The notes under the pieces were generated by a model, which did no database searches, was not told the origin of the DNA, and was given only the letters and a program-made list of their open reading frames with translations. Positions 2,909 to 56,391 of a stretch of DNA of 64,000 bases are shown here, one piece after another; position 1 is the stretch's first letter; each line of letters begins with the position of its first letter. Made by a program: the position numbers and the translations under genes. The DNA is from an uncultured Prevotellaceae bacterium (GTDB taxonomy: Bacteria > Bacteroidota > Bacteroidia > Bacteroidales > Muribaculaceae), in the NCBI GenBank assembly GCA_900318205.1, contig ONJS01000004.1, positions 62,001 to 126,000 on the forward strand, written 5' to 3'.

Positions 2909-5173
2909 TTAATCCTTGCTGAGGAGGACACCTATCAGGACAGTCACATCATCGATGCTGACACGGCCATCGGTATTGATATCGGTACAAATGGGACAGC
3001 CGGAGTCCGTATCACTCAACAGGCAACTGATGAGGGCTGTCACGTCAGAGATACTGATCTGGCCATCATGGTCAACGTCTCCAATTTCAAAGGTGTGGTA
3101 ATGCTCCCAAATGTACGCCATGCCTGCCAGGGCATCTATCTTGCCGCTGCCAAAGTGGGTGGCGTTGGCGCCCTCGGTGACCCAAGCGTCGCGGATGGCG
3201 GTCTCACGCATGATGTCCTTGATCTCGCTCAGGGTGAACGTCTTGCCACATTCGGCGCCAACCTGCATCCACAGGGCGACGATGCCGGCGACTGCCGGGG
3301 TGCACATTGAGGTGCCTGACATCCTGCCGTAAGGGTAAGTCGGGTGGTTGATGACCATCTCATCGTAGTCATCGCCGTGGTTCACATTGTGGTTGAAGGC
3401 CGAGATGATGTCCTCGCCAGGTGCCGTAATCCAGGGATGCATCGTGCCCAAGGGGCCCATACCCTCAAGGGCATAGCAGGAGAAATCCGAGATATCACCC
3501 AACTCGTTGCTGCCCTCACGCGTGCGGGTCACATAGGAGCCCACCGAGATGACCTGCGGATAGCAGGCGTTGGCAAACACGCTCATGTCATCAGTACCCA
3601 GTGTCCACGTGTGGTCCTCGGTAGTGAGATGGTTGTCAAAGTAAGTGAACGTGCCACATGACCACATGTCGATGATGTCAGAACTGCCCCCGATGGGATA
3701 CACCTCGACGGCGAGCGTGTAATTGTTGCTGATCAGACCATTGGGCGTGAGTAGGAGAACCTGTTTGCGGTTATTGGCGGTCATGTAGTTATAGTAGATG
3801 CGCACCTGAGCCTTGCCAGCGCCGCCACTACCCGTGAAGTAGTCATCGACTTGAAGGGTTTTGTTCCCGTCATCGTTGGTGAAACTATAGGTGTCCACGA
3901 GTTCACCTGTCGCCTTGTCCAGCACCAGGATGTTCACGCCGATGCCAGTCGCATCGGTGGCGCGGGTAAAGGCATCGGCAATGTATTCACCCTTATAGTA
4001 CAGCCACCCGGCATCATAGACGATGGGGCTGGAGCAGACGATGGTTCCCAGCGGGGCTTCGCTTGACGCGCTGCCCGAAACATAGACGCCACCTGGCTCA
4101 CCGCCGCTATGGCCGGCATTGTTGCCCGTAGCAAAGACGCAGATGCGGTTAGGATGTTCTTCACCGAAGAGTTGCGAGATGACCTCGGCCTGGGTACCAC
4201 CACCGTCGCGGTTATAGACAAAATCGCCATAACTGTTGCTCACGACCAAGGGCTTGCCGACGCTGTCGGCATAACTGCACATCCGCCTGAAGGCATTGGC
4301 AATGCGAGCCGCGCCCATGCCATTGATACCGCACAAAAACAACTCTGCTCCCGGAGCCATACCGCCGTAGGTGGCGTTCTCGTGGTCGTCGGTTACGGTG
4401 ATATCCATGCCGTTGACCATCACACTGGAACCGCCGGCAATGGCGCTCGTGTGGGAGCCGTGATCGGTATTGGTGATGCCATCGTTGGGCAAGGGACCGG
4501 TGCCGTAGTATTCCACCGTTTGGCCGTTATAGACGTAGGCCCGCTTGAATCGGGGATTGCCGTCCTTGTCCTTGAAGGCAATGTGGTCATAGTCGATGCC
4601 GCGGTCGATGACACCCAGAATAACACCGCGACCGTCATATCCCTTGGGCAGACCTGCAGCCATGGCAGCAGCCGAATAGTTGAGCACGTCACCAACGTTG
4701 GTCGCCTTACGCGCCTCGTCGGTCGCCAATTGCATGACAGGTGAGACTTCTATCCCAGTCACCTCCTCGAAGGCAGCAACATCGTGAATCTTGTCCACAG
4801 GCAGCAATGCCGTGAGCAAACCGTTCTGGAAGCGGCTCTCGATGATGACACCCAAGGCTTCCATCATGCCGATGGCTTCATCACTTGCCACATGCACAAA
4901 GGACGAGATGTACACCTTGCCGTCAATCGTATCGGGCGTAACATACGGACGTTCAACAGCCTTGAGCATCAGCGGCTGGCCCGGCACGTTCATTCGAGTA
5001 ACCGGCTCTTTGTCAAAACTCAGGTTGCCCTGCAGTTCGTCCAGGAACATCTGGGTAGATATCGACAGTTTGTTGTTGGCAGACGCCACTCCATCATTAG
5101 CCATGGTAACGCTTGGACATGCCATTGTCAAGAGTAAGGTCGTCAATAATAAATACTTAGTAATCAGGTTCAT
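2909..5173 (-). CDS. Secreted subtilisin-family (S8) serine peptidase with C-terminal dockerin-like doublet
   Basis: A 754-residue secreted protease. Residues 1-25 form a signal peptide (KYLLLTTLLLTMACPSVTMA). The catalytic triad is visible as Asp190 in VILGVIDRGIDYDH, His238 in DHGSHTSAIAGG and Ser622 in RMSGTSMCTPAVAGIVALW; a long insertion lies between His and Ser. Residues about 697-754 hold two dockerin type I-like repeats, GDVDHDGQISISDVTALIS and DINTDGRVSIDDVTVLIGVLL, each with the Asp-x-Asp/Asn-x-Asp-Gly calcium loop. An N-terminal region of about 160 residues before the catalytic domain may act as a propeptide. The gene is alone on its strand, with a TATCTTTG promoter box at 5215-5222. 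It belongs to the dockerin set spread through this window. Catalytic identity is clear; the substrate is unknown. Confidence 0.92.
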   Translation of the reverse strand: MNLITKYLLLTTLLLTMACPSVTMANDGVASANNKLSISTQMFLDELQGNLSFDKEPVTRMNVPGQPLMLKAVERPYVTPDTIDGKVYISSFVHVASDEAIGMMEALGVIIESRFQNGLLTALLPVDKIHDVAAFEEVTGIEVSPVMQLATDEARKATNVGDVLNYSAAAMAAGLPKGYDGRGVILGVIDRGIDYDHIAFKDKDGNPRFKRAYVYNGQTVEYYGTGPLPNDGITNTDHGSHTSAIAGGSSVMVNGMDITVTDDHENATYGGMAPGAELFLCGINGMGAARIANAFRRMCSYADSVGKPLVVSNSYGDFVYNRDGGGTQAEVISQLFGEEHPNRICVFATGNNAGHSGGEPGGVYVSGSASSEAPLGTIVCSSPIVYDAGWLYYKGEYIADAFTRATDATGIGVNILVLDKATGELVDTYSFTNDDGNKTLQVDDYFTGSGGAGKAQVRIYYNYMTANNRKQVLLLTPNGLISNNYTLAVEVYPIGGSSDIIDMWSCGTFTYFDNHLTTEDHTWTLGTDDMSVFANACYPQVISVGSYVTRTREGSNELGDISDFSCYALEGMGPLGTMHPWITAPGEDIISAFNHNVNHGDDYDEMVINHPTYPYGRMSGTSMCTPAVAGIVALWMQVGAECGKTFTLSEIKDIMRETAIRDAWVTEGANATHFGSGKIDALAGMAYIWEHYHTFEIGDVDHDGQISISDVTALISCLLSDTDSGCPICTDINTDGRVSIDDVTVLIGVLLSKD

Positions 5174-5214
5174 GAAGGTAAAGACATTTTGGTTATTATC
5201 TATTCTCGGGTGTA

Positions 5215-5222
5215 CAAAGATA
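5215..5222 (-). promoter_or_regulatory. Bacteroidetes-type -7 box for the S8 peptidase
   Basis: TATCTTTG on the minus strand matches TAnnTTTG, 42 bases before the start codon. No clear TTTG -33 box is seen. Confidence 0.55.
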
Positions 5223-14023: not shown

Positions 14024-14041
14024 CCAGTGAATTTTGATGAT

Positions 14042-17408: not shown

Positions 17409-17714
17409 TTACTGGCCTAGGATGATGTCAATAAGGTAGTTGGCATCGGAGATATTGACCTCGTAATCATCATTGACGTCAAAAGGCTCTCTACGATAGG
17501 ATGCTTGTGTCGGCTCTGATCCATCGGAGTATAGTATATTGTTGCCCCATTGTCGTAACACCTCATCGAGACTTGTATGGGTTCTCCATAGGTGCCGCCA
17601 TCAGGCGAAATCCCGTGTGCAGACAATGTTGCCGCCAAGGCTTGCATGGCGACACATCCGGCTACTGCCAGCACCAACAGAGCAAAATAAGACAAATAAC
17701 CTTTTCAACGCCAT
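17409..17714 (-). pseudogene. Frameshifted mini-gene: signal peptide, chitobiase-like domain and dockerin half-repeat
   Basis: Read from the ATG at 17714 to the TAA at 17409, the minus strand encodes a sensible protein of about 100 residues only if two errors are repaired. A run of four A on the plus strand (17684-17687) carries one extra base, breaking the signal MALKRLFVLF-ALLVLAVAGC; near 17525-17530 one base is missing, breaking GATIYYT-DGSEPTQASY. The shifts compensate, so the start and end share one frame. The repaired product has a signal peptide, ISPDGGTYGEPIQVSM... of the chitobiase C-terminal type, and the dockerin half DVNDDYEVNISDANYLIDII. Its ATG overlaps the stop of the upstream gene (TAATG), so it was built to be translationally coupled. 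It could be a true pseudogene or a site of sequencing errors. Confidence 0.8.
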
Positions 17715-20239
17715 TATGATTTGTTGGTTGCCATGTAATCAACAAGGGCATTGACGTCAGCGACATTAAGCTCACCGTCAAAGTTCAAGTCACCGATGAT
17801 GTGGATTGCGCTACCTGCCGAAGTAATCTCAACAGGATAGAGTTCAAGCTGATTATTGTAAACAGTCAGGAAGCCCGACACATTCCATTTCATATCGCCA
17901 TCATCCTCTTGTGTCCAGGTCCAATCATAGTCAATCTTACCAGACAGAATAATATCAATCAGGCTGTTGATGTCGGCAATGGTTACCTCACCGTCATTGT
18001 TCAAGTCATAGGGATTGCGCGGTGGAGCGATTGGGAGCTCTGGCCCCGGTATCTCTATGTGGAACTTGTTGAAAACCAGCAATCGGTCACACTCGTCCTC
18101 GATATAGGTATTGCCGCCCTCGGTAACAAACTTCACATTCTCAAAACGTACATACCAGTGGCACATGTCCTGCGACACTTCTTCGGTACATCCGGCATCC
18201 TCAGGTTCTACAGGGAGGCCATGACCGACCTTGACCCAATCCCCAACGGGCATAAGTTGCCTTTGATTTTGATAGGTTGTCCAACGGGCAACGCCCTCGA
18301 TGGTGTCGCCATTGACAAATTCTCCACCGACATTGCCATACATCAGAATATAATCTTCACACAGGTCCTGAGCGTACAGATTCACACCATTCTGATAGAT
18401 GACGACAAGCTTGATCTTGAATGTCTCATTATTCTCTAAATTATACGCATCCTGCAGGCAATGGACAGGTTCCGGATCTTGATCATCAAAATCCCATACC
18501 AGCAACTGGAAAATGCCCCTATGGGCCGATACAATGCCACGGATATCTATCCGCTGCGTCTCGTCAGGATAAGTAAAGGGGAGTCCAGGCCTGATGTAGA
18601 TGGGCAATTCGTTGCCGTTCTCGTCACGGATTACACCCTTCTCCTTGTCAACAATCACGTTCTTGATGATGACATAATGTGCCCAAAGTTCTGGGCCGAC
18701 TTGCGGGATAGTCACCTCTTCAGGAACCACCTCCACATGAGCTTTGGACGGTTGGAAGCCGGATAACGGTTGAGCCAGTTCAGGCCAGCCGTCATAATAG
18801 GTCACCTTGCCACCAAAGCCAGAGGGTATCACGTCACCATGATAGTAGATCTGCCCCACATTTCCATAGATAAGTCCGTAGCCCGTCTCGTCCTTGGCAT
18901 AAAGATAGTTACCTGACTGCAGGATGACCGTGGCATCATAGTCAAAGGTAATCTCGTAGGGATTGGGATTCTCGGGATTATAGAATTGCCAGTAGTTGCC
19001 CAGTCCGATGCGCAGATTATCATGAGGAGTAATCGTTATCGGCAAGAGCTGATAAATGACATTCTCCCTGCCATAGGAGCCGATGATGCCTGTGATATCA
19101 TAGTGGCGAGACAAGTCGGGCGGGACAGGACAATCAAAACGGTTGAAATACATGGGAATCCTGTTGCCCGAGGCATCAACAGCATAGTATATACCGTCCT
19201 CCTCGATGATGGTCACATCCTCGAGAATCACGTAGTGGGCAAACAGCTCGTGGCCTACCTGGTCAAGAGCGATCTGCTCGGGCTCAATAGGGATATTGCT
19301 GGTGGCAGTCTGGAAATTGACCGGGTTTATCAATTCCATCTCTCCGGAGTAGGTGGTTCTGGTGACTACAAAGCCAGCGGGAATCACGTCTCCAGTGCGG
19401 TAGGTCTGCCCCACATTACCATAAATCAAGGCATAACCGCCACAGCCGTCCTTGACAAACAAATATCGGGACGTCTGAGCCACAGCATAGATAGGCGAGG
19501 TGAAACGCACCTCGGTGTTATCATCCAATGGTTCCAAATCCTCAAAACAGTTGAAAGACGGCAGACTGACGATGGTATAATCGGCACTCACGACGTCACT
19601 CACCTCTCCATCAAGGATTGCAACAGCCTTGATGGTCATGTCATGATTGACAACAATTGGGGCTGTGTACACGGGAGACTGGGCATCAGGGTTACTGCCG
19701 TTGGTCGTGTAGTGAACGGTGGCGCCAGCGGTGTAACTGGTGATGGTCGCCTCAAAGGGCTCGTAATAAGTACCGGACGCTGGGCTGATGATAGGAGCGC
19801 ACAAGCCTTCACCATCATCAATGGTAACGATAATCTTGGTGATACGCACTTGATTGGTCTTGGCTATAAAGCTAACCACAGGCGCACTACCCGTCCACAC
19901 ACCGATTTTCTCTTGATAAGCATAGTCGCCAACACTCTGTTCAAAGCATCCGGGACCATACTGGGCATCGCCCTCGCCAGTACAGTGAAACTCAATTTTA
20001 ATGATATTTCCATAGCAGGTACTGATGCGGAGAATCTGGCCCTTGTACACACGAAATTGGGTCTCATTGACAAGGCCGTTGCTCACTTCAACCGTCACAC
20101 AGTCCTTTTCAATAGCGTAGGATGAGGGAGCAGGAGTCAAGCCGACTCCATCCTGAGGCACAAAGACGACAACCCTCACCCCTGCCCAAGCAGCAACCGC
20201 CATCAGGCACAACAACAATAACGTAAAGATTCTTTTCAT
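17714..20239 (-). CDS. Large secreted protein: chitobiase-like domain, OB-like repeats, C-terminal dockerin-like repeats
   Basis: An 841-residue exported protein. The start at 20239 gives a clean signal peptide (MKRIFTLLLLCLMAVAAWAG); an in-frame codon at 20308 is upstream of the promoter box and is rejected. Domains in order: a beta domain of about 120 residues (YGPGCFEQSVGDYAYQEKIG), a chitobiase C-terminal-like Ig domain (ISPASGTYYEPFEATITS, HYTTNGSNPD), then three OB-like repeats each with a GYxLIYGNVGQxYxxGDVIP core, and two C-terminal dockerin-like units (DLNNDGEVTIADINSLIDII and GDLNFDGELNVADVNALVDY) separated by a spacer of about 40 residues. It is a close architectural paralogue of the gene at 27279-29783. 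Function is unknown; surface glycan binding is one possibility. Confidence 0.85.
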   Translation of the reverse strand: MKRIFTLLLLCLMAVAAWAGVRVVVFVPQDGVGLTPAPSSYAIEKDCVTVEVSNGLVNETQFRVYKGQILRISTCYGNIIKIEFHCTGEGDAQYGPGCFEQSVGDYAYQEKIGVWTGSAPVVSFIAKTNQVRITKIIVTIDDGEGLCAPIISPASGTYYEPFEATITSYTAGATVHYTTNGSNPDAQSPVYTAPIVVNHDMTIKAVAILDGEVSDVVSADYTIVSLPSFNCFEDLEPLDDNTEVRFTSPIYAVAQTSRYLFVKDGCGGYALIYGNVGQTYRTGDVIPAGFVVTRTTYSGEMELINPVNFQTATSNIPIEPEQIALDQVGHELFAHYVILEDVTIIEEDGIYYAVDASGNRIPMYFNRFDCPVPPDLSRHYDITGIIGSYGRENVIYQLLPITITPHDNLRIGLGNYWQFYNPENPNPYEITFDYDATVILQSGNYLYAKDETGYGLIYGNVGQIYYHGDVIPSGFGGKVTYYDGWPELAQPLSGFQPSKAHVEVVPEEVTIPQVGPELWAHYVIIKNVIVDKEKGVIRDENGNELPIYIRPGLPFTYPDETQRIDIRGIVSAHRGIFQLLVWDFDDQDPEPVHCLQDAYNLENNETFKIKLVVIYQNGVNLYAQDLCEDYILMYGNVGGEFVNGDTIEGVARWTTYQNQRQLMPVGDWVKVGHGLPVEPEDAGCTEEVSQDMCHWYVRFENVKFVTEGGNTYIEDECDRLLVFNKFHIEIPGPELPIAPPRNPYDLNNDGEVTIADINSLIDIILSGKIDYDWTWTQEDDGDMKWNVSGFLTVYNNQLELYPVEITSAGSAIHIIGDLNFDGELNVADVNALVDYMATNKS

Positions 20240-20268
20240 AACAATCGATATAGTTAATAGTGAATGTG

Positions 20269-20276
20269 CAAATATA
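20269..20276 (-). promoter_or_regulatory. -7 box for the gene at 17714-20239
   Basis: TATATTTG on the minus strand, 29 bases before the chosen ATG. Its position supports the shorter start. Confidence 0.5.
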
Positions 20277-20309
20277 TGAATTCTTTGTGACATTGCTATC
20301 TCCCTCATC

Positions 20310-23888: not shown

Positions 23889-24592
23889 CGCTTCACGATT
23901 TTAATGATTTGACTACCTGCTTTAACCACATATTCGCCCGAGGGCTCTTTATCAAGTGACACCTTGACGTTATCGTTTCCTTGCATAATCTTGACAATTC
24001 TACCATCGGCACAAGCCACCTCAGTCAAGTCATTTTCCTTCAAACCATGCAGGAAAATGGTACCAGCGGATGGCATTTCAAGGTCGTTTTGCAATAAAAG
24101 CTCGTTAGAAACAGTCATTTGACCATAACGCAACTGAACTATGTTCGCAAGTCCGTAGGTCATCATCATGCCATCGGTCTCTATAACAAAATCTGGCTTT
24201 AAAATCATGAGCCTACTGTCGTCATTAAGTAGGTATTCCATGGTGATGCCATCAGTTGTTGTTATGAGAATAGTCGAATAGAGTTGAGCTGAAGGCAAAC
24301 TCAGAATGATGTCAATCAGTTTGGCAACATCCACTATATTCATCTGTCCGTTGCCATCAACGTCAACGACGGGAGAATCGCCATTTTCGTCAGTGTTCAA
24401 TAGTTTATTAATGAGGAAAGTGACATCTCCAATATTCACTTTGCCATCACCATTCAAATCACCTTGCTGCATGGTGGTCCCTTCTTCAAAATTGATTGTG
24501 ATGTGAGCGGCATTTTCGGTGACAGTATCAACCGCTAAAACTTGTAACGTTGACAAGAAAAAGGATAAAATAAAAAGAAATCTGTAACTCAT
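23885..24592 (-). CDS. Secreted protein with N-terminal dockerin-like doublet and type IX-like C-terminal sorting region
   Basis: A 235-residue exported protein. The signal peptide is FLFILSFFLSTLQVLA. Residues about 42-98 are two dockerin-like repeats (GDLNGDGKVNIGDVTFLINK and DVDGNGQMNIVDVAKLIDII), placed at the N-terminus rather than the usual C-terminus. A short beta domain follows (ILITTTDGITMEYLL...). The last 50 residues, with VACADGRIVKI, VKVSLDKEPSGEYVVKAGSQ and a basic end IIKIVKR, resemble the type A C-terminal sorting domain of type IX secretion. It overlaps the giant Ig-repeat gene by 4 bases and probably shares its mRNA. Promoter box at 24658-24665. Confidence 0.78.
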   Translation of the reverse strand: MSYRFLFILSFFLSTLQVLAVDTVTENAAHITINFEEGTTMQQGDLNGDGKVNIGDVTFLINKLLNTDENGDSPVVDVDGNGQMNIVDVAKLIDIILSLPSAQLYSTILITTTDGITMEYLLNDDSRLMILKPDFVIETDGMMMTYGLANIVQLRYGQMTVSNELLLQNDLEMPSAGTIFLHGLKENDLTEVACADGRIVKIMQGNDNVKVSLDKEPSGEYVVKAGSQIIKIVKR

Positions 24593-29783: not shown

Positions 29784-29842
29784 TGCAATGAAAGTTATTA
29801 AATGGTTAATAATGAATTGTTCAGCGTTAAGATATATTTGGG

Positions 29843-29850
29843 CAAAGATA
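29843..29850 (-). promoter_or_regulatory. -7 box for the gene at 27279-29783
   Basis: TATCTTTG on the minus strand, 59 bases before the chosen ATG. Confidence 0.5.
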
Positions 29851-29966
29851 CACCTTTTTTCCAAAACAGAACATAATATCCAGCATATTTTTTTCAGTGC
29901 AGAAAAAACTTCTTTTGCTACAGCAAAAAAATAAAAATTGAGGGGCGGATACTGAAAAAAATGTAT

Positions 29967-29974
29967 TACCTTTG
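29967..29974 (+). promoter_or_regulatory. -7 box for recA
   Basis: TACCTTTG lies 57 bases before the recA ATG. No SOS-type operator palindrome is evident around it. Confidence 0.5.
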
Positions 29975-30031
29975 CCAGTTGCTTCGACATATAAAAATCA
30001 CATTAAAACTATCAACTCAACAAATACTTTC

Positions 30032-38837: not shown

Positions 38838-40301
38838 CTATCTCAACAGCAGATTGACCAACTCGGTCACATCGGTGATACTGATATTGCCATCACCCGA
38901 AATATCGGCGGCAAGCATCTGCTCGCTATTGCCTAACAGCATATCGATGAGTTGTGAAACATCAGCGATGCTCACTTTACCATCAAAGTTGATGTCATTG
39001 GGGACATGCATTGCCATGATCTGCGTATCCAGCCAGGCATAACGATCCTCCAGCCACTGGTGACGCCATGAAGCAAGATGAGTAAACCATGTGTTCTGCT
39101 CCCAGATAACATTACAGAGGGTATAGCAGTCATTCAAGGCACGACCTTCATTAGAGTTGACAAATTCATTATAGTGGTCCGTCACATCGTCCAAGAAGGT
39201 GTCACGCATCATGCACCACGCGCGTACAAACTCGTTGATAAACGTACGGTTTGAGTTATTGAACAACTGTTTCATGTAAACAGTATGGCATCTGGACCAA
39301 GCCGAAGGCGTGCGTTCTGCCATATCAAAGTCCCAAGCCACAGGCATGTAAATCTTGCTCGTGGCGGTCGTGTCATATTTTGTGTAGAAGCGATTACAGC
39401 CGCCACCGTCCTTGATACCCATAATGTCATGGACCAGACACCAGGTGGCAAACGACCGCACGTCGATCATGTCAGGATAATTATTTGACGTGAGGCATGT
39501 CTCAAAGGCATACACCAGTGACTGCATATAAGCCAGTTGTTCCTCGGTGATGTCATCCTCATCGGGATACTTGAAGGTATAGTTATAATTGGGAGAATCA
39601 TAGGAGTAGACATAGACCGGCTCGTTCCACCAATAGATGTCACATTCAAAGATGAACCCCCAATCCTTATCGACGTTGAGGCGGCAGTCAGGATTACGCT
39701 TGACCGATTCGGTCAACAGATAGATACCACGGTACACGTCATTGATCACCACGTTGACATAGCGGTGGCCCGGCACCCACAGCATACCAACCAGATGGCT
39801 GACGTTGAATGCAGTTGACGTGAACAGGTTATCATCCTTGAGCAGAAGCCAGTCCTTATCCTTAAAGACCGATTCATCACCACGGAACAACAGGTCACGC
39901 TTTTTTTGCAACTTGATTTTATAGGGTTTTCTCTCTGGACGGGCACTGGAATTGCCTCGCACCCTGATGGTCATGCCGCTCACGTCCTTCTCATAGTCGC
40001 CACTGTCATACAGCGTGCTGTCCACTCCATCAATACAATCATAGATGGAAAGACGCCCCGGCACTTTTTCGGCGTTGATCGTCGTGCCCCAAGAGCCTGC
40101 CGGCGCAGAAACGATTTCACAGGTGGGCTCCACTCCATCCACCGTCGTCACATATACTACAGGCAACCCCTTGCCGATCAGGTTGTGTAAACTCATATGC
40201 AAGTTATCGTTCAACCGTATCGAGACCGGTGGCACATCTGCCTTAGCCGTACTACCGCAAAACAATAGCAATAGCAGCAATGATGTAATAACCTTTCTCA
40301 T
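38838..40301 (-). CDS. CotH kinase-like protein with C-terminal dockerin-like doublet (first of two)
   Basis: A 487-residue paralogue of the next gene, with the same order: signal peptide (VITSLLLLLLFCGSTAKA), CotH core (DVSGMTIRVRGNSSARPERK, PYKIKLQKKRDLLFRG, HDIMGIKDGGGCN, MPVAWDFDMAERTPSAW) and a C-terminal dockerin-like doublet (FDGKVSIADVSQLIDMLLG, ISGDGNISITDVTELVNLLL). Blocks such as NPDCRLNVDK and WWNEPVYV are identical in both, so this is a tandem duplication. It starts only 40 bases after sufS and no clear promoter box lies in the gap, so it may be read as the tail of the suf transcript. The role is unknown. Confidence 0.88.
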   Translation of the reverse strand: MRKVITSLLLLLLFCGSTAKADVPPVSIRLNDNLHMSLHNLIGKGLPVVYVTTVDGVEPTCEIVSAPAGSWGTTINAEKVPGRLSIYDCIDGVDSTLYDSGDYEKDVSGMTIRVRGNSSARPERKPYKIKLQKKRDLLFRGDESVFKDKDWLLLKDDNLFTSTAFNVSHLVGMLWVPGHRYVNVVINDVYRGIYLLTESVKRNPDCRLNVDKDWGFIFECDIYWWNEPVYVYSYDSPNYNYTFKYPDEDDITEEQLAYMQSLVYAFETCLTSNNYPDMIDVRSFATWCLVHDIMGIKDGGGCNRFYTKYDTTATSKIYMPVAWDFDMAERTPSAWSRCHTVYMKQLFNNSNRTFINEFVRAWCMMRDTFLDDVTDHYNEFVNSNEGRALNDCYTLCNVIWEQNTWFTHLASWRHQWLEDRYAWLDTQIMAMHVPNDINFDGKVSIADVSQLIDMLLGNSEQMLAADISGDGNISITDVTELVNLLLR

Positions 40302-45449: not shown

Positions 45450-48400
45450 TTATAGTGCCAATCTGAGGCCGACATGGTACTCGGCATAGTCCGGCTCGTT
45501 ATAGTTGCGGCAAGATACACGGCAGTACTTGGCAGAGTTGCACCAGCTGCCGCCACGCATCACACGGTAAGAACCCGTGGTAGGACCTGTCGGGTCGGTC
45601 TGCGGCTCGCTGCTGTAGGCGCCATACCAGTCCTGGCACCACTCCCACACATTGCCTGACATATCGTAAGCTCTATTCTGATAGCAATATTTGGTTCCCA
45701 CAGGATGAGTGCCATAATCAGGGTTACCCATGCCCACGGCATAACTGTTATCATAATACCAAGCCACATCGTCAATATTCCAGCTACCCGCATATAGGTA
45801 TTCATCCATGTCGTTCCTGCCACGAGCAGCATATTCCCATTCAGCCTCGGTGGGCAAGCGGAACTTCCTGCCGGTCAGTTCGTTCAGCTTGGCGATAAAC
45901 GTTTGGCAATCTTTCCACGACACACTCTCCACAGGACGGTTCATGTCTCCCAAAAAATAGCTCGGGTTGCTACCCATCACCGCCTGCCACAAGGCTTGCG
46001 TGACCTCGGTCTCACCGATTCGGTAATTCGAGAGTGTCACCTCATGAACAGGGTTCTCATTCTCGTTTGCTTGGGAGGCCTGACGTGAAGTTGCACCCAT
46101 TCTGAACTTGCCACCCATGACTGCATACATCTTGAACGACACGCCATTGACTGTAAAAGTTTTGGTCTCGAATTGCATGTCAACCACTACGATGATAAGT
46201 TCAGTGAAAGCGCCAGTAGTGTTGTCGGTGACTCGGATGATGGCTAAGCCTTCCTCAACAGTCATCACGTTCAACGTGTTGCCGTTCAGGCTGCAATTTA
46301 CGCAGCCTTCGCCTTCGGTCACGCTGAAGGTATAACTACCACTGCCGTTGAGGATATCAACTGGCAGGCTCTCACCTAACTCAAGTTCCATGACGGTTTC
46401 GCTCAAGCGAAACTTAGGGCTATCCTCCGCATCATGGGCAAGGCGCAGGCCCAGATTGTAGGACGCGTAACCAGGGTGATAACAGTCACGTCTCGACACT
46501 CGACAATCACTGGGGGTGTTGTTCCAGCCACCGCCTCGCGCCACGCGTTCATAGCCTGTTGCGGTACCCCTCGGGTCAATCTGGGCCGTGTTGCCGTAAT
46601 TACTGTACCAATCCTGGCACCATTCCCACACATTACCACTCATGTTATACAGTCCCAACTCGTTAGGCATCTTGCGAGGAATGGAAAGCGGGCCCCATTC
46701 TTGTCTGAACATCGCTAAATCGTTGATTGAATCGCTACCTGAATACTTGTAGCCTCGACTCAGGTTACCACCTCGGGCAGCAAATTCCCACTCAGCCTCA
46801 GTCGGCAGTCTGAAATGTTTACCTGTCTCCTTATTCAGCTTGGCAATAAACCTTTGGCAGTCATACCAAGTGACATGTTCCACTGGGTTATCTATTCCAT
46901 AGCTATCGATATAGGGGTTGTCACGCAGTTTATCACCCTTCGCGGGCATCTCATAGATAGGTTCATAATGGAAATAGCTTGGGTCGCTTATATCTGTCCC
47001 CCACATCATTCTCCACCACAGCATTTGCGGCACCTCGGTCAGAGATATGAAGAAGTCTGACACGGTCACCTGGTGTACAGGCCGTTCGTCCTCACTGTAT
47101 TCGTCACCCTGCTCGGCAGTTGCACCCATCATGAATGTGCCACCCTTGACTGAAACCATCGTGATACCCGACATGATTACACTATCCAGATCAACAATGA
47201 TATTGAGAACAGTCGTCATGCCTGTAGAATTATCTTTGACATATAGGGCAGAATTACCTACAGCCCTTCCCGTCACGCTCAGATGGTCTCCATCCAGTTG
47301 ATAATCATAATAATAGTCTCCATACTTTCCCCTAGAGATGGTATAATCCCCACTACCATTGAGTAGATCAACCGACTTGCTTCCACCGATAACTAACGGC
47401 ACTGCCATTTCAGACACACGGAATTTAGGACTATTTTCCTCTTCAAGTGCAAGACGTAAACCATAGGCCCAGAAATCAGTACTATATGTGCGGAATCGAC
47501 ATGAAACACGACAATACTGCGGTTCGGTAGTACAGCCTCCGCCACGATGTACTAATTCAGATTCCGTAGTGGGACCAACAGGATTGGTTTGAGCCATGCT
47601 GACATAGTCTCCGTACATGTCCTGGCACAATTCTTTCACATTGCCAATCATGTCATACAGACCCAATTCGTTGGGCTGCTTCTTCGCAACACCTCTGGTT
47701 CTCGTACCAGGATCCGGAACTCCAGCTCGGTTCCTCTCGTCACCAATCATTGAATTGCCACTGTACCACGCCACATCTTCCAGCGTATTACTGCCAGCAT
47801 ACTTGTAGCCCTGGCTGCGATTACCGCCACGAGCAGCAAATTCCCACTCAGCCTCGGTGGGAAGACGGAAATGCCTTCCTGTCAATTCGTTCAGCTTGAT
47901 AATAAACAACTGGCATTCTCTCCATGAAACATTATCAACGGGTAACTGCTTCCAGTCCTCGCTTTCGCTGCCAATCATGCTATTGTTATAGCCCATGACT
48001 GCCTGCCACAGTTCCTGGGTCACCTCGGTCTGACCGATGCTGTAGGTCGACAGCGTCACCTGATGGGTCGGCAACTCATCAGGTTCATATTCATCGCCCT
48101 GCTCGGCAGTCGCACCCATCGTGAAGGTGCCACCCTCGACCTTCACCATTGTGAACTTCACGCCGTTCACTTCAAAGGTCTCGGTCACTGGCGGGTTCGG
48201 TTCTCCACCGTTCAACAGATGGTTGATCAATACCGACACGTCAGCGATGGTAATCAGACCATCACGGTTCACGTCGGCATTGGTGGTGCCATAGGTATCA
48301 GAGTCACTACTCAGCAGATAGGAAATTAATGATGTCACGTCGCTGATGTTCACATGGTCATCCTGGTTCACGTCGCCCAACAAATCACGGGCACTTGCTG

Positions 48401-48455
48401 TCACCGGCAGTAACGCCACCAGCAACAACACAAGAGTTTGCAAAGTTTTCTTCAC
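45450..48455 (-). CDS. Secreted protein with N-terminal dockerin-like doublet and three formylglycine-generating-enzyme-like domains
   Basis: A 1001-residue exported protein. Signal peptide LQTLVLLLVALLPVTASA; residues about 24-82 are two dockerin-like repeats (GDVNQDDHVNISDVTSLISY, ADVNRDGLITIADVSVLINH). Three SUMF1/FGE-sulfatase type domains follow, at about 100-340, 435-680 and 765-1001. Each has GGTFxMGA near its start, EVTQxLWxxxMG, a WxxCQxFIxKLNxxTGxxFRLPTEAEWEFAARGG core and an end with CRVS and GLRLA. Between them are beta spacers with LNGSGxYTxS. The two-cysteine active site of true FGE is not convincing (CRVSCR, CRVSRR, CRVSCR), so enzymatic activity is uncertain; such domains also act in binding. 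It is monocistronic. Confidence 0.88.
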   Translation of the reverse strand: MKKTLQTLVLLLVALLPVTASARDLLGDVNQDDHVNISDVTSLISYLLSSDSDTYGTTNADVNRDGLITIADVSVLINHLLNGGEPNPPVTETFEVNGVKFTMVKVEGGTFTMGATAEQGDEYEPDELPTHQVTLSTYSIGQTEVTQELWQAVMGYNNSMIGSESEDWKQLPVDNVSWRECQLFIIKLNELTGRHFRLPTEAEWEFAARGGNRSQGYKYAGSNTLEDVAWYSGNSMIGDERNRAGVPDPGTRTRGVAKKQPNELGLYDMIGNVKELCQDMYGDYVSMAQTNPVGPTTESELVHRGGGCTTEPQYCRVSCRFRTYSTDFWAYGLRLALEEENSPKFRVSEMAVPLVIGGSKSVDLLNGSGDYTISRGKYGDYYYDYQLDGDHLSVTGRAVGNSALYVKDNSTGMTTVLNIIVDLDSVIMSGITMVSVKGGTFMMGATAEQGDEYSEDERPVHQVTVSDFFISLTEVPQMLWWRMMWGTDISDPSYFHYEPIYEMPAKGDKLRDNPYIDSYGIDNPVEHVTWYDCQRFIAKLNKETGKHFRLPTEAEWEFAARGGNLSRGYKYSGSDSINDLAMFRQEWGPLSIPRKMPNELGLYNMSGNVWEWCQDWYSNYGNTAQIDPRGTATGYERVARGGGWNNTPSDCRVSRRDCYHPGYASYNLGLRLAHDAEDSPKFRLSETVMELELGESLPVDILNGSGSYTFSVTEGEGCVNCSLNGNTLNVMTVEEGLAIIRVTDNTTGAFTELIIVVVDMQFETKTFTVNGVSFKMYAVMGGKFRMGATSRQASQANENENPVHEVTLSNYRIGETEVTQALWQAVMGSNPSYFLGDMNRPVESVSWKDCQTFIAKLNELTGRKFRLPTEAEWEYAARGRNDMDEYLYAGSWNIDDVAWYYDNSYAVGMGNPDYGTHPVGTKYCYQNRAYDMSGNVWEWCQDWYGAYSSEPQTDPTGPTTGSYRVMRGGSWCNSAKYCRVSCRNYNEPDYAEYHVGLRLAL

Positions 48456-48646: not shown

Positions 48647-51097
48647 TTAATGGGCCAGGATGATATCCATGACGGCGTTGATATCGGCGATGTTGACCTC
48701 GCTGTCGTGATTGACATCGGCAGGAAGAACAGACGCGCCCGAGAGAATAACGTCGATAATGGCATTGACATCGGCAATATTGACTTCGTTGTCACCGTTC
48801 ACGTCACCCGGCAGGTGCTCAAGTCCTGAGAGAGGATAGTGGCAGTAGAGCGACTTGATGGACATGGTCTGCTCACCAGCCTCGGCATCCTTATTAATGG
48901 AGAACTTGATCAGTTTGATGGACACGGGATAGGTACCCACATAATCGCTGCCTCCCAGCGAAGCCAGGTCCAACACGATGTGGTAATCCTTACCGGGTTC
49001 GAAGACCTCGGAACCGTCTTCGGGGAAATACTTGATGTAATTGGTCTTGGTCTTAAATCGGTTGCGCGTATCAATCTGCACATAGTCGATGGGCAGCGAC
49101 GAATTGAAGACCATACCAATTGTGTCGGGCAAGCCATAGAAGGTCAAGTCCTTGGCCAGCGACAGCGACGGGGAGCGGTTGGTCACATAGGTGTAAGTGA
49201 TGTCTCCGGTTTCCTCATCGAGGACCATATTCTTGGCACCGACACCCCTCAGTGTCCAATCGTCCCAACCCTCATACAGGTAGGCCGAGGGGGCCAGCTG
49301 CACCTGTACCTGGGTCGTGTCATTGAAGGTACCGACCATGCAGCTCAACTGGGTCTCGCCATTGGCCTTGCCAGACAACACGCCATTCGTGACTGAAGCG
49401 ACTTCGGGATCTTCGACAGTCCAATGAAGCGTGGCAGGGTCAAAGAAATAGGTGTTATCCAGAACCTGGGCCGACACCTCAACGGGATATTCGCGCTTGT
49501 CGATAACGATGGGCTTGAGGACAAGACCCGGCTCGGCGGCGAGCACATGAACAGGCATCGTGGCGGTCATCTCGCCCAACGTGGCGGTGAGCAGTCCCGT
49601 GGCATCCTCGCTGCCAGCGACAAACATATCACCGTCGGCGGTGCCGATGGCCTCGTCGCAGGACAGGGTGAAGCCCTTCACGTCCTCATCAATGAGTTCA
49701 CCAATCTTGTTATAGCCCAGGATGCGCGGCGTCATCGTGGCATAACTGGGTATGTCAACGCGATGCTTCTCAAAAGCGATGCTTGCCAACTCGTTGTCCT
49801 CCTCGCCGATGGCCTCGACCATCCATCCGGTCGCTACGCCACGAGGAGTCCCCTCCATCGTCCTATTGATGATTTCGCCTCGCACGAGCATCTCGGCCGA
49901 GCCTCCGGCATCCATATTGACCATATCATTGACGTCGGGGCACATCTGCTGCAGGATCTGGCAGGCGTGGCCTGTGGTACAGCCGATGGACTTGCCGTAT
50001 AGAGGGCTCACCGACTTGTCAATCACCAGCAGATACAAGTGCTTGCCATCGGCACTGGTACCGTAGCAAGTGCGGGAATAGTCGATTGAGTTATAGCTGT
50101 CGCCATAGTTGCGATAAGTGAGTTCGCCGTTGTGCATGATGGTCGCATTGCCGGTCACCAGGTTCTCGACATCGGTGATGACAGTCGCAGCATCAGCGTC
50201 AAGATTGGTCCAGTAGGACGACAACTGAATCGTGTCGCCCACAGCATGGACAGCCATGGCAGCCTTGTTGGCGTCGCCTGTAACCGTCAGGCAGGCGTCA
50301 TAGTCGCCCAGCGTCTGTTTGTCCATGCCCGGGACGATGTTGGCGACAACAAAGGTCATCGGCTTGTTGGTACACCAGTCTTCTCCCTCGGCAAACATCA
50401 GGTAGTAGTTGTCACTCGCGTTATCACCACGGGTATCAAAAGACACCCAGTCGTCCTCAAACTTGCGGGTGCGGGTATAAGCAGGTCCCCACAGGCAGAT
50501 TTCGCCCGTCACGGCACGGCGGTTGATGTTGTGGTAAATCAGCCATTGCGGCAGTTTGCTCGAAGTGATAATGCCATCCCATCTCACACGACCCATCACG
50601 AGGGTCTTGTCGCTGGTGATGGCAGCAACGCCCGTTTCGGTTGGGCCACCGCTCCACATGTCACTGGTGTTGTTGTCATTCACGATGGTGGTGTCGTTGC
50701 ACACCACACCGCCATTAGGTGAGCCCATCGCGTAGGCATTGAAGGGGTATCCGCTGCCGGTGACAATCCAGAAGTTGGCGTTACAGGCGGCAATCGGGCG
50801 CTTGGTGGGTGTTCGATGGCGTTTTACGGCGTCAGCCAGCAATTCGGTCTTGCCGACGATGCCACGTCCATAGGTGGTTTCCACACGGTTATTGGGATTG
50901 TTGAGATCAACAGTCACTACATACACATTGAGCGGGAAATCGGGAAGGCGCACAATCACATTGATCATGCCTGGACCGACCTGCCGATAGACCAGTGTGT
51001 CGGCACGGTATGCTTTTCCGTCAATGACAATGTCGGCTCCAGCCGAAAAAGCACTTAAAACAAATGCCAATAAAAAAAGAAGTAGTGATTTTTTCAT
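48647..51097 (-). CDS. Phosphodiester glycosidase (NAGPA-like) with C-terminal dockerin-like doublet
   Basis: An 816-residue exported protein. Signal peptide SLLLFLLAFVLSAFSAGA. Residues about 40-440 match the phosphodiester glycosidase domain of the human uncovering enzyme: RPIAACNANFWIVTGSGYPF, NGGVVCNDTTIVND, LYLLVIDKSVSPLYGKSIGC, TTGHACQILQQMCP and VNMDAGGSAEMLVRGEIINR (family D-GGS motif). A bacterial Ig-like domain (VSAQVLDNTYFFDPATLHWT) and a beta-sandwich follow, and residues about 760-816 are a dockerin-like doublet (GDVNGDNEVNIADVNAIIDV, DVNHDSEVNIADINAVMDII). It may remove phosphodiester-linked sugars from glycoconjugates. Promoter box at 51130-51137. Confidence 0.87.
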   Translation of the reverse strand: MKKSLLLFLLAFVLSAFSAGADIVIDGKAYRADTLVYRQVGPGMINVIVRLPDFPLNVYVVTVDLNNPNNRVETTYGRGIVGKTELLADAVKRHRTPTKRPIAACNANFWIVTGSGYPFNAYAMGSPNGGVVCNDTTIVNDNNTSDMWSGGPTETGVAAITSDKTLVMGRVRWDGIITSSKLPQWLIYHNINRRAVTGEICLWGPAYTRTRKFEDDWVSFDTRGDNASDNYYLMFAEGEDWCTNKPMTFVVANIVPGMDKQTLGDYDACLTVTGDANKAAMAVHAVGDTIQLSSYWTNLDADAATVITDVENLVTGNATIMHNGELTYRNYGDSYNSIDYSRTCYGTSADGKHLYLLVIDKSVSPLYGKSIGCTTGHACQILQQMCPDVNDMVNMDAGGSAEMLVRGEIINRTMEGTPRGVATGWMVEAIGEEDNELASIAFEKHRVDIPSYATMTPRILGYNKIGELIDEDVKGFTLSCDEAIGTADGDMFVAGSEDATGLLTATLGEMTATMPVHVLAAEPGLVLKPIVIDKREYPVEVSAQVLDNTYFFDPATLHWTVEDPEVASVTNGVLSGKANGETQLSCMVGTFNDTTQVQVQLAPSAYLYEGWDDWTLRGVGAKNMVLDEETGDITYTYVTNRSPSLSLAKDLTFYGLPDTIGMVFNSSLPIDYVQIDTRNRFKTKTNYIKYFPEDGSEVFEPGKDYHIVLDLASLGGSDYVGTYPVSIKLIKFSINKDAEAGEQTMSIKSLYCHYPLSGLEHLPGDVNGDNEVNIADVNAIIDVILSGASVLPADVNHDSEVNIADINAVMDIILAH

Positions 51098-52797: not shown

Positions 52798-53970
52798 TTA
52801 GTTGCGACCGAAGAGGTCTTTAATGCCGTCCAGGTCAAAGGACAGGGTGAAGCGCAGCGTCTGGTCCAGAGGACTGTTCTGGGCTGTTGCAATCATATAG
52901 CTGGCATCAATCTTGATGACGTTGAGCGAGAAACCTGCACCCAGACCGAAGTACTGGCGATTACCGGCATACTTGCTCTCATAGTAGTAGCCACCACGCA
53001 GGAAGAACTGCTGGTTATAGGCATACTCGGCACCCACCGAATAGGTGATGCGCTTGGCAAAGTTATCCTTGAAGCTGTCAAAGATACCTGCGATAGAGGA
53101 TTTGTCCTTCCACTCCTGCAAAGCGTCGTCGTAGGCCAGGTTGTCATCATAGTCGTTCAAGCGCGGCTTGGCGGGAACGAGCATGCGGTTGGCATCAAAG
53201 GCCAGCGTCAGGTTATTGTAATCGGCCAGCGGGAACGTGAATGCCGTACCCAACTTGATGTTTGCGGGCAGGTAGGCAGGGTCATTACCCTTGTTGTAGT
53301 TCACCTTGGAACCGATGTTCGACAGGTTGAAACCCAGCGACCACTGGCACTCGTTTCGGCCAATGACGGGGAACGTGGTGTAATAGCCCGAGATGTCGGC
53401 GGCAAATGCCGTGGCACTCGACGATTCACCCGTGTTCATCATCGAACCGTAGCCCAGGTCACTATAGACGAAACGCAGGGTTACACCCATCGAGAATTTC
53501 TCACTCAACTTGCGGCTATAGCCAGCGTCAACAGCCATCTCAAACGGGTTGATGGTTGACAGCACCGCTCCGTCGCCGTCGGTTGCCATGACCTCACCCA
53601 GCGAGAAGTAGCGCAACGAGGCACTGATTGCCTGGTTGTCACTGCTACCCACCTTGTAATAGCCTGCCAGATTGGCAAGATAGATGTCGTTGACAATCTT
53701 GCGCAACCACGGCGTATAGGACAAGGAAACGCCTGCCCGGCTGTAGGCAAAGGCATATTTTGACGAGTTCCAATACTGAGAATTGACATCGGCCTCGGTA
53801 GCGGCACCCAGGTCACCCATTGATGCACCACGGGCATCAGGGGTGATACTCAGCGAGGTCACACCCGTCGTGATGGGATTGAACTCAGCATCCTTGATGT
53901 CACCCTGGGCAGCGGCCGTCAGGGCTGTTGCCATCATGGCGATGGCAAGTATCGACTTATACAATTTCAT
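52798..53970 (-). CDS. porV: PorV-type outer membrane protein (type IX secretion)
   Basis: A 390-residue outer-membrane beta-barrel of the PorV/PorQ family. PorV shuttles type IX cargo from the translocon to the surface attachment complex in P. gingivalis. Signal peptide YKSILAIAMMATALTAAA, with cleavage before QGDIKDAEF. The N-terminal TTGVTSLSITPDARGASMGD and LGAATEADVNSQYWNSSKYA, YSRAGVSLSYTPWLRKIVND, and FSMGVTLRFVYSDLGYGSMM are the family hallmarks. It ends with alternating strands and RFTLSFDLDGIKDLFGRN with a C-terminal region typical of barrels. Upstream is the GH13 amylase, downstream ispF. Confidence 0.92.
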   Translation of the reverse strand: MKLYKSILAIAMMATALTAAAQGDIKDAEFNPITTGVTSLSITPDARGASMGDLGAATEADVNSQYWNSSKYAFAYSRAGVSLSYTPWLRKIVNDIYLANLAGYYKVGSSDNQAISASLRYFSLGEVMATDGDGAVLSTINPFEMAVDAGYSRKLSEKFSMGVTLRFVYSDLGYGSMMNTGESSSATAFAADISGYYTTFPVIGRNECQWSLGFNLSNIGSKVNYNKGNDPAYLPANIKLGTAFTFPLADYNNLTLAFDANRMLVPAKPRLNDYDDNLAYDDALQEWKDKSSIAGIFDSFKDNFAKRITYSVGAEYAYNQQFFLRGGYYYESKYAGNRQYFGLGAGFSLNVIKIDASYMIATAQNSPLDQTLRFTLSFDLDGIKDLFGRN

Positions 53971-54126: not shown

Positions 54127-56208
54127 TCAATTGCCGGCAAGCAGCAGATTGATCAATGCCGATACATCGGCGATGGTAATACCTCCAATGCCATTGACAT
54201 CAGCGGCAGCCAGGTTGACCGACGTATCGTCGTCGCTCAACAGATAGCTGATCAGGTCGGTCACGTCCTTGATGGTCACACGGCCGTCGCCATTCACATC
54301 GCCCGTGGTAACATTGAGGTAAGGCAGATACTCGGCGGTAATATCACGCACCTGGTATTTGTTGGTTTGGGTCGTTACCTCAAAGAAGGCCGTCTCGTGC
54401 ACACCCGTCACGTCCACCGTCTGATGGCTGCCTGCAGTGCTGCCGCCCTGGCTGAAGACAAAGTTCAAGGTATACTGATTGCCTATAATCGTGAACGTCT
54501 TGTAGTAGAATTTCACGCCGTTGACCACCTTGGTATCGGTCACCACGACACCTGGCCAGTTGCCACATTGCTGGGCATTGTCGCTGTCCCAGCAGTAATA
54601 GGCTACCTGCGGCCAGTTGTTGGGCGACGTGGTAGGGTCCTTGAGATAGACGGTAATCTCGTAGCTGCCATAATCCTCGTTCACGACGGTATAATTGCGG
54701 GTGATGACGCCCGTTACCGTGCCGTTGATCAACAAGCCAGCCTTAAGTGTCAGACTCTTGCCGATGTGGGCTGTACTACCGCTGGCGATTACCGTACCAT
54801 TGGTAGCGGTGGGCTCGCTGCCGTCAAGGGTATAGACAATCTGGGCACCGCTGGACTGGCTCACGGCGGTCAGCGTGACGTTGAACGGGTCCTGACGGGT
54901 GCCGCTGGGCACGCTGGCCCAAGCGGTTTCGGTGCTCTTGCTGAGGGCGAGACGGTAGTTGGTACCGCTCAACACCGTGACATAGGTCGAGGGGATGGCA
55001 TAGCTGGTGCTACCCATCGCGGCGATCAGCATGCCACGGGTGCCCGTAGTGCGCTGGGCATAGTAATTGGCTGAAGAATTGTAGGCCTGCTGGGCTGTCG
55101 TGCTGGTGTTGGTGATGCCAGCCAGCTGGCGGGCATAAATCATCTGCTTGATGCTCTCCTTATATGCCTGCCAGTGCTTGAGGAAGATACAGGGTGTGCC
55201 CGGCATAGAGAGCATGTAGGCGTTAGCCGCTTCGACATTCTGTCGAATCGGATCCTGCTGGTCATTGTCATCGCGATATTGCGTGTCGTGGTTCTCGACA
55301 AAGGTCACAGCATAGCGCTTGTAGTTGGACTCCATGTTCAGACCCTTGCCGCTGCCGGACAGCGAAGTCCACGAGTTGTTGTTGACCGCGTCGCGGATGG
55401 TGTAGCGGAAGGTGAAGTCAAAGGCAGCGCTCTGGATGACGCCATTCACCTTAGTACCGTCAATCCACGCCTTGAGGGCACCCAAGTTGCCGTCCCAATA
55501 CTCGCCCACCGAGTAGGTGGGGTTGACCGCGGTGTTATAGATACCCGTATAAGATGGCGCATAACCCCTGGTCATATCGTAACGGAAGCCTGCATATTTC
55601 ATATCGTTGAGCAGCATATTCAAGTAGCCCTTAACCACAAACTGCACATTGCTGCTGGAGTGGTCCAGGTCACGCAAGCCGCTCCAATCCTCACCACTGT
55701 CGTTGTTGGCGCTCAAGGTCTTGCCGTTCTGGTTTGCCCATGCCAACGTGGCTCCGCCGTCATCATTACGGCAGATGTCGGTGGACAGCAGTTTGTAACT
55801 CACACCCCTATAGGTCTCTCCAGGGAAGGTCACCCAGTCGTTCAGGCTCTTGCGATGGTTGATGACCACATCGGCAATGGTGCCGATGCCCTTGCTATTG
55901 AAGGTGTTGATCATTGACAGCAGTTGCGCCTTGGTGCCGAAGGAACTGGTGTAGTTGTTGAACCAATACTCGGGGTCATAGCCCATCGAGACATAGCCGC
56001 CACAGCTGGCACTCTGGGGAACCCACACGAGTTGGAAGAACTCAGCCAGTTCGTCGGCTTGCGGCTCAAGGTTTGTCCACTTGCTGTCATCGTAGGAGTC
56101 CCAATAGAACGCCTGCAGCATCACGCCGCCATAATCGGCGGGCCATCCCTGCCCCAGCATCATCAGAGGCAGCATCATCCACATTACAATACTAAAAATC
56201 CGTTTCAT
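54127..56208 (-). CDS. Secreted GH13 alpha-amylase with starch-binding-like module and dockerin-like doublet
   Basis: A 693-residue secreted amylase. Signal peptide IFSIVMWMMLPLMMLG, then QGWPADYGGVMLQAFYWDSY. The catalytic residues are Asp211 in YAGFRYDMTRGYAPSY, Glu236 in YSVGEYWDGNLG and His307-Asp308 in TFVENHDTQYRDD. Residues up to about 440 make the barrel and C-domain. A chitobiase-like Ig domain follows (AQIVYTLDGSEPTATNGTVI), then about 100 residues like a CBM26-type starch-binding module (ITVYLKDPTTSPNNWPQVAY, CWDSDNAQQCGNWPG). The last 60 residues are a dockerin-like doublet (GDVNGDGRVTIKDVTDLISY, DVNGIGGITIADVSALINLL). It likely cleaves starch outside the cell. An orphan dockerin fragment lies just upstream. 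Confidence 0.93.
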   Translation of the reverse strand: MKRIFSIVMWMMLPLMMLGQGWPADYGGVMLQAFYWDSYDDSKWTNLEPQADELAEFFQLVWVPQSASCGGYVSMGYDPEYWFNNYTSSFGTKAQLLSMINTFNSKGIGTIADVVINHRKSLNDWVTFPGETYRGVSYKLLSTDICRNDDGGATLAWANQNGKTLSANNDSGEDWSGLRDLDHSSSNVQFVVKGYLNMLLNDMKYAGFRYDMTRGYAPSYTGIYNTAVNPTYSVGEYWDGNLGALKAWIDGTKVNGVIQSAAFDFTFRYTIRDAVNNNSWTSLSGSGKGLNMESNYKRYAVTFVENHDTQYRDDNDQQDPIRQNVEAANAYMLSMPGTPCIFLKHWQAYKESIKQMIYARQLAGITNTSTTAQQAYNSSANYYAQRTTGTRGMLIAAMGSTSYAIPSTYVTVLSGTNYRLALSKSTETAWASVPSGTRQDPFNVTLTAVSQSSGAQIVYTLDGSEPTATNGTVIASGSTAHIGKSLTLKAGLLINGTVTGVITRNYTVVNEDYGSYEITVYLKDPTTSPNNWPQVAYYCWDSDNAQQCGNWPGVVVTDTKVVNGVKFYYKTFTIIGNQYTLNFVFSQGGSTAGSHQTVDVTGVHETAFFEVTTQTNKYQVRDITAEYLPYLNVTTGDVNGDGRVTIKDVTDLISYLLSDDDTSVNLAAADVNGIGGITIADVSALINLLLAGN

Positions 56209-56253
56209 CTTTATAATACTCTAATTATTGGTTCATCACATTATTGTCCCACC

Positions 56254-56391
56254 TTAATACCATGTTGGAATATTCAGCAGACGGTTGATCAGTTCGGTAA
56301 TGTCATCAATACTAATAACACCTTCCTCATCATAAGGCAACTGCTTGAAAACTTGGAAATATACTTGCCACAAAGATAGTACTTTATCCAT
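56254..56391 (-). pseudogene. Orphan dockerin-like half-repeat fragment
   Basis: On the minus strand 45 codons from an ATG at 56391 to a TAA at 56254-56256 end in PYDEEGVISIDDITELINRL followed by LNIPTWY. This is a dockerin type I-like half with Asp-x-Glu-x-Gly loop and the usual helix. There is no signal peptide before it (MDKVLSLWQVYFQVFKQL), so it is probably the last remnant of a lost gene, or a mini-protein. It sits 46 bases upstream of the amylase gene on the same strand. Confidence 0.65.

Follow-up and report, generated by a model that had tools for sequence, protein, structure and literature searches.

What do dockerins serve in a bacterium in which no cohesin is in view? The question is raised by a stretch of 64,000 nucleotides (hereafter the window; contig ONJS01000004.1, positions 62,001 to 126,000 of the forward strand) from an uncultured Prevotellaceae bacterium that GTDB places in the Muribaculaceae. 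A sequence-only reading had noticed dockerin-like repeats at twelve loci of the window, on proteins with very different catalytic and binding domains, had seen no cohesin, and had suggested a common attachment, secretion or folding tag that is not a cellulosome. Here, we report that divergent cohesins are encoded outside the window and that the two modules occur together throughout the genus. We propose, with moderate confidence, that the dockerins function as docking tags in a largely non-cellulosic complex that spans the genus and is built on a few divergent cohesins.

The repeats of the window were evaluated using a repeat profile built from the listed dockerins of this genome (G000), those of the window included and the mini-gene and orphan fragment described below excluded. 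Indeed, the profile detected 21 repeats at E < 0.001 in twelve places, as had been claimed; its best match on reversed proteins had an E-value of 4.4. A consensus pattern matched 16 times in the window, 0 times in its reverse and on average 0.01 times in 200 triplet shuffles. PF00404 matched 9 of the 10 intact repeat-bearing open reading frames (ORFs), 8 of them over the cut-off; the DUF5689 protein, at 22.3 bits, was marginally under the cut-off of 22.9. In a comparison of a profile of eight window doublets with solved structures, true dockerins came top (4fl4_A, E 6.8e-10, with 2ccl_B and 1ohz_B), and generic EF-hand proteins ranked after them at about 1e-4. The sequence-only reading had allowed that the repeats might be unrelated EF-hand-like loops; PF00404 and the comparison with solved structures both identify them as dockerins instead. 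They show the features of the type I module: two calcium-loop repeats, conserved Asp/Asn ligands, helices and, in the 8 window ORFs, a score over the cut-off.

Across the genome, PF00404 gave 151 matches, of which 150 were listed, in 150 ORFs; with 150 of 312 candidates scored, this count is a lower bound, and 12 more ORFs with dockerin repeats were found in the fetched stretches. The reading had placed the modules at either protein end, correctly for the window, and had suggested a count by position: the dockerin is C-terminal in 124/150 listed ORFs, with 8 N-terminal and 18 internal ones making up the rest. By a simple hydrophobicity rule, the signal peptide of most dockerin proteins looks ordinary. 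Pfam was run on 146 of the 150 proteins, with 25 of 38 and 25 of 48 families shown. Among these, the commonest cargo was BspA-type leucine-rich-repeat (LRR) proteins (30), C10 peptidases (13), CotH (12) and FGE (8), with 5 amylases and 2 GH53; no GH5, GH9 or GH48 was among the families listed, where rarer ones could escape. In a set of 61 genomes, 37 of this genus and 24 from other families, PF00404 matched 29 to 89 times in each of the 37 genus genomes; one other-family genome had 38 matches and 23 had 0-2. Many of these per-genome counts are lower bounds, at most 87 candidates having been scored in each.

The Pfam cohesin model gave one match over the cut-off in this genome and one weak match. 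A profile of 56 cohesin domains (A1; 50 of them drawn from 21 genus genomes, the remaining 6 from two different families) gave 13 strong matches on 10 ORFs, five of these being rows of A1. Neither Pfam nor A1 matched a cohesin within the window, the closest lying at C25:143393-143764. The statement that no cohesin is present thus holds for the window and fails for the genome; the cohesins had been missed because of the window limits and the threshold. Against solved structures, A1 matched cohesins (5n5p, E 1.5e-8). For a model of a cohesin-dockerin adaptor with a mean predicted local distance difference test score (pLDDT) of 78.6, PDB cohesins headed both lists of a structure comparison that covered the cohesin part only. 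Both the sequence and the jelly-roll fold are thus those of a cohesin (PF00963).

A1 cohesins were found in 37/37 genus genomes (1-15 each), including 16 genomes without any A1 row, versus 3/24 others. The Pfam model was over its cut-off in 23/61 genomes, comprising 18/37 of the genus and 5/24 of other families. Four other genera of the same family had 0, 0, 0 and 1 dockerin matches, and the genus with 1 carries two A1 cohesins as well. When 294 genomes were drawn more widely, dockerins were present in 27/30 genomes with A1 cohesins versus 56/264 without. The genus-wide co-occurrence of divergent cohesins with very many dockerins and an unusual cargo is real. One genome of another family (G039) carries 24 A1 cohesins, many in tandem on ORFs of 2467 and 1239 residues (C25:211551-221570), along with 38 dockerins and 75 sorting domains; from its sequence, it appears to represent another lineage, one whose scaffoldin is more classical.

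The cohesin proteins share a recurrent architecture. At three places (C32, C26 and C23), a two-gene cassette encodes a large cohesin protein with a C-terminal tail and, after it, a small protein of some 220 codons that combines a cohesin with a dockerin and has a signal-peptide-like start. Within the large protein, the middle module is among the listed dockerins at C32 and is dockerin-like by eye at C26 and C23, Pfam giving no dockerin at E <= 0.001 for the C26 module. An alignment across six genomes showed the order cohesin-dockerin-cohesin-tail, the tail being of two kinds. Two LRR proteins (C39 and C46) have the order dockerin-cohesin-tail. Finally, a 698-residue ORF of this genome holds two full cohesins, one partial cohesin and a dockerin, and is thus a multi-cohesin scaffoldin; the mean pLDDT of its model was 69.7, with the dockerin part below 50.

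The position of the dockerin was compared with that of the sorting domain of the type IX secretion system (T9SS) on related enzymes. The queries were 40 ORFs with a T9SS sorting domain from 15 other-family genomes, picked by hand from the best rows for TIGR04183 with their score and length known and their function not. Their last 90 residues were removed, and the remainder was compared with 621 genes of this genome in which the dockerins had been masked. This set held 147 of the 150 listed dockerin ORFs and 18 more with repeats, and only about a quarter of the other genes, so that non-dockerin relatives may exist elsewhere. Matches at E < 1e-5 were obtained for 14/40 queries; the best match was a dockerin-repeat protein in 13 and a non-dockerin protein in one (binomial p = 0.0015, with the proportion of dockerin ORFs in the signal-peptide-like genes as the expected rate; the queries are not independent). 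The 13 cases represent about 7 families: C10 (four), M6 (two), amylase (two), a DUF5689-linked region (two), endonuclease I, Omp28 and CotH. The C10 pairs share the peptidase plus its inhibitor domain. The outgroup proteins have canonical sorting domains at their C-termini; the homolog here has a clean C-terminal dockerin in 10 of the 13. Of the exceptions, C21:84593 keeps a sorting-type tail behind its dockerin, and two lead to the DUF5689 protein of the window, whose single repeat is N-terminal. Identities were 26-39%, so the pairs are homologs rather than proven orthologs. No relation was evident between the dockerin profile and that of sorting domains.

Together, dockerin and cohesin identity, signal-peptide-like starts, co-occurrence, the two-gene cassette, the T9SS genes and the exchange of C-terminal tags between families suggest how such a complex might work. 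Secreted C10, M6 and S8 peptidases, amylases, CotH and FGE proteins, endonuclease I and many LRR proteins would bind cohesins through their mostly C-terminal dockerin, in a predicted calcium-dependent manner. The carriers would be the large proteins in which two or more cohesins surround a dockerin or a module resembling one, and their C-terminal tails, if they act as T9SS signals, would place them on the cell surface. The small cohesin-dockerin adaptors encoded beside three of the large proteins would take part. The dockerin proteins would in this way be gathered on few cohesin proteins, probably at the surface.

The T9SS is present in the genome, as judged by PorV and SprA, the two components searched. 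PorV, an outer-membrane component of the system that the sequence-only reading had not mentioned, lies in the window (52798..53970, minus strand; NF033710, 454.3 bits, cut-off 250) and is 94% identical to its counterpart in RUG412, followed by many from Prevotellaceae, Muribaculaceae and Bacteroidales, with 72% identity to that of Candidatus Sodaliphilus fimicaballi. These identities point to the Muribaculaceae of the rumen. SprA was found in this genome and in 57/61 genomes. A second, partial SprA-like match lies at C26:68953-70302 (plus strand) of this genome, in a 483-residue frame with one TGA inside; partial matches likewise occur in G025, G032, G036 and G021. TIGR04183 matched 5-18 times per genome in the genus versus 27 to at least 78 times in 20/24 other-family genomes; the remaining four had 0, 0, 2 and 8. 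When 599 kb from two further genera of the family were sampled, 5 of 120 signal-peptide-like ORF tails matched, crudely about 20 per genome. Based on this sample, and because a short tail type is largely missed by the profiles, the deficit is partly family-wide or a profile artefact. A wholesale reciprocal loss of sorting domains in the genus was considered, is weakened by these data and is not relied on here.

The tails of the cohesin proteins were evaluated using a tail profile, A2. It matched 5/10 cohesin ORFs versus 3/143 dockerin ORFs without a cohesin; each of these eight tails had itself been a row of A2, and the result is informative mainly in that none of the remaining dockerin ORFs among the 150 matches. 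An iterated sorting-tail profile began to take in dockerins at around the third round, and later rounds were not used. The short tail type, with 8 examples in the 25.7% of the genome that was fetched, compared with canonical sorting domains at a probability of 16.6% (dockerin control, 0.5%); it is weakly related at best to the canonical domain and largely missed by canonical profiles. Four proteins at two loci (L041, C36:21685-25417; L122, C36:35951-37225) end in a near-identical short tail like that on the cohesin proteins; judged by sequence, this may be a short sorting domain outside TIGR04183. The only PF18962 match of the genome listed above the cut-off (29.2 bits; 24.4 bits, below the cut-off, in the protein scan) is L032 (C39:27773-37576, minus strand), a protein of 3268 residues with laminin-G-type domains about 3.4 kb from an LRR-dockerin-cohesin gene.

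The outer membrane is the weak point of the proposal: sorting-type tails are on 3/143 cohesin-less dockerin ORFs, as given above, and a lipobox, by a crude pattern, is on 11/150. The T9SS moves folded proteins. In this genus, the dockerin might have taken over the role of the sorting domain, with enzymes that bear a sorting domain in other Bacteroidales docking in the periplasm on tail-bearing cohesin carriers and riding through the T9SS pore to the surface, in a relay of two parts for export and display. Such a ride would solve the outer-membrane step for the cargo; we consider it possible, though on the whole unlikely.

Several results weigh against the proposed complex. The tails of 3/3 cohesin proteins tested did not match TIGR04183 at E up to 0.01, and a profile of 12 canonical sorting domains (A10) found 0/10 cohesin ORFs at E <= 0.1, a relaxed threshold of E <= 1 yielding 2. 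Profile-profile alignment of cohesin-protein tails with canonical sorting domains using hhalign gave an E-value of 7.8e-5 but a probability of only 61.5%. The 13 cohesins face at least 150 dockerins. Cohesins do not always mean dockerins, as 4 of the 5 other-family genomes with a Pfam cohesin have 0 or 1 dockerin; cohesins of another type thus exist without dockerins. The co-occurrence statistic at the level of the order ignores phylogeny, and 7 of the 14 order-level genomes with at least 10 dockerins have no A1 cohesin. Overall, the T9SS link is plausible but unproven. In five genomes with at least 10 dockerin matches and no A1 cohesin (G127, G218, G148, G151 and G308), many listed matches begin only at profile position 8 to 11; these repeats may be a different EF-hand type.

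The same data bear on other explanations. The first is that a Gram-negative host has an ordinary cellulosome or amylosome, directed at plant polymers and with peptidases and LRR proteins as accessories; this would resemble the system of Ruminococcus flavefaciens, whose strain FD-1 has 222 dockerin proteins including peptidases, LRR proteins and serpins (PMC2930009). Amylase, CBM26 and GH53 are indeed among the cargo here, and yet LRR, C10, CotH and FGE proteins are the most frequent among the families listed, from which GH5, GH9 and GH48 are absent. In Pfam, the single large cohesin protein that was scanned (L059, 1611 residues) contains LRR and Big_2 domains and no carbohydrate-binding module (CBM). 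We regard this explanation as improbable. The suggestion of a common tag that is not a cellulosome fared well in this respect, as the findings agree better with a tag for general attachment than with a cellulosome of the textbook kind and the cargo, in the Pfam families listed, is largely not plant-cell-wall enzymes. It fared less well in doing without cohesins: a cohesin scaffoldin does occur elsewhere in the genome, an outcome that the reading had named as counting against it, and would largely account for the attachment. Its secretion half may still hold, as the tag occupies the place of the T9SS sorting domain on several enzyme families.

That half leads to a further possibility, namely that the dockerin itself signals secretion or folding to an as yet unknown machine, the cohesins having some other role. 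The C-terminal position in 124/150 ORFs, at the place of the sorting domain on related enzymes, the scarcity of cohesins relative to dockerins and the lack of an accepted route over the outer membrane for most cargo are all as expected for such a signal. The N-terminal and internal dockerins are unlike a C-terminal signal, the sequences are those of classical dockerins, A1 cohesins occur in 37/37 genus genomes, and the dockerin profile shows no relation to that of sorting domains; we find this explanation decidedly improbable. Most dockerins might instead be inherited spacers of little function, spread by gene duplication, with only a few binding cohesin. Their excess over cohesins, the multicopy nature of several cargo families, and the broken copy and orphan fragment in the window would suit this explanation. 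However, position 10 of the first repeat is Ile in 141/149 cases across unrelated enzymes and positions 1 and 12 are Asp in 149/149, the search pattern having already required D/N and D/E/N at these two. Spacers of little function thus seem very improbable.

Among known systems, as described in the available parts of the papers cited, the closest published idea is that of Candidatus Stygibacter, a Gram-negative member of the Cloacimonadota with a predicted cohesin scaffoldin of 3,755 residues carrying CBM2/CBM3 and a C-terminal sorting domain, and with C-terminal dockerins on S8 and C25 peptidases and on amylase- and chitinase-type enzymes (PMC8542988). The likeness lies in dockerins on peptidases and amylases and in a tailed scaffoldin, the tails here being only sorting-like. 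In contrast to its one scaffoldin and few named cargo proteins, the present genome has 10 cohesin ORFs, adaptor cassettes and at least 150 cargo ORFs, and homologous cargo carries the sorting domain in other families. Sodaliphilus genomes with 63-107 dockerins each were taken as candidates for cellulose degradation, the main text making no mention of cohesin (PMC10872696), and Muribaculaceae C941 was reported to have dockerins and GH13 without cohesin, from which a non-amylosomal route was inferred (PMC9863278). These are probably the same genus as that studied here or its kin, in which, unlike in those reports, divergent cohesins are present in 37/37 genomes. The camel-rumen Bacteroidetes bin #136 is listed with both abundant dockerins and tandem cohesins (PMC6071333), and bovine Prevotella bins are said to carry both modules (PMC9863278); these were interpreted as cellulosomes, and the available text does not mention sorting tails, adaptors or tag exchange. 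R. flavefaciens and Ruminococcus albus resemble the present system in their large dockerin excess and their peptidase and LRR cargo, with surface anchoring through few cohesins (PMC2930009, PMC6118326); they differ in being Gram-positive and, in R. flavefaciens, in a sortase-type anchor on ScaE. Candidatus Paraporphyromonas polyenzymogenes, a rumen Bacteroidetes, exports enzymes by the T9SS, with the sorting domain on 42 genes with carbohydrate-active enzyme domains (PMC5831590); unlike for the present genus, the available text reports no cohesins or dockerins. In literature on dockerins with the T9SS and on Muribaculaceae or Bacteroidales cohesins, subscription literature being mostly outside its scope, we found neither a description of cohesins in this genus nor one of dockerins replacing sorting domains. 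The modules were already known; their combination and the tag exchange are the new part.

The twelve dockerin loci of the window all lie on the minus strand, and Pfam bore out the domains that had been assigned to them. A Peptidase S8 protein (2909..5173; Pfam S8 8.4e-30, dockerin 5.9e-8) has a C-terminal doublet (repeats 2921-2983 and 3017-3082). A single repeat at 17418..17480 (E 1.3e-7), in a 63-residue open frame, is adjoined by a chitobiase-type start in another frame (by eye; frames not joined), and the locus appears to be the remnant of a broken gene. A Chitobiase-C/Fn3-type secreted protein (17714..20308) has two repeats about 70 residues apart (17735-17794 and 17945-18007), and Pfam gave no dockerin match in it; a second Chitobiase-C/Fn3-type protein (27279..29990; dockerin 1.8e-5) has a C-terminal doublet (27303-27353 and 27387-27452). 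A 235-residue protein (23885..24592; dockerin 1.4e-9) combines a signal-peptide-like start and an N-terminal doublet with a T9SS-sorting-like C-terminal tail that is a row of A2 and matches A2 by construction. The DUF5689 protein (24734..26677) has its repeat at 26531-26596, and a stretch of about 170 residues in it has relatives in T9SS-tagged proteins of genome G049. By Pfam and the repeat profile, C-terminal doublets are also found on two CotH-type proteins (37340..38812 and 38838..40301), a phosphodiester glycosidase (NAGPA; 48647..51097) and an Alpha-amylase with a CBM26-like region below the cut-off (54127..56208). A triple FGE-sulfatase-domain protein (45450..48455; FGE 1.4e-125, dockerin 9.8e-13) carries its doublet N-terminally, directly after a signal-peptide-like start. 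The last locus is an orphan half-repeat (56275..56322; E 1.2e-4) in a 54-residue open frame. Between dockerin genes, at 20394-23888 (minus strand), a protein of 1164 residues matches Cep192_D4 and further Ig families of the ASH/HYDIN type over three stretches and has no Pfam dockerin. At 13925-14706 (plus strand), a HigB-like toxin gene (PF05015, 3.2e-9) precedes a helix-turn-helix gene (PF01381); by sequence, the pair looks like a type II toxin-antitoxin system.

If true, the proposed complex would place a large cohesin-dockerin system in an abundant group of rumen Bacteroidales and would offer partners for the dockerins reported there without cohesins. It would also offer a case, open to testing, in which the same enzymes have exchanged one protein tag for another, and cargo riding out on its carrier would be a new mode of T9SS export.
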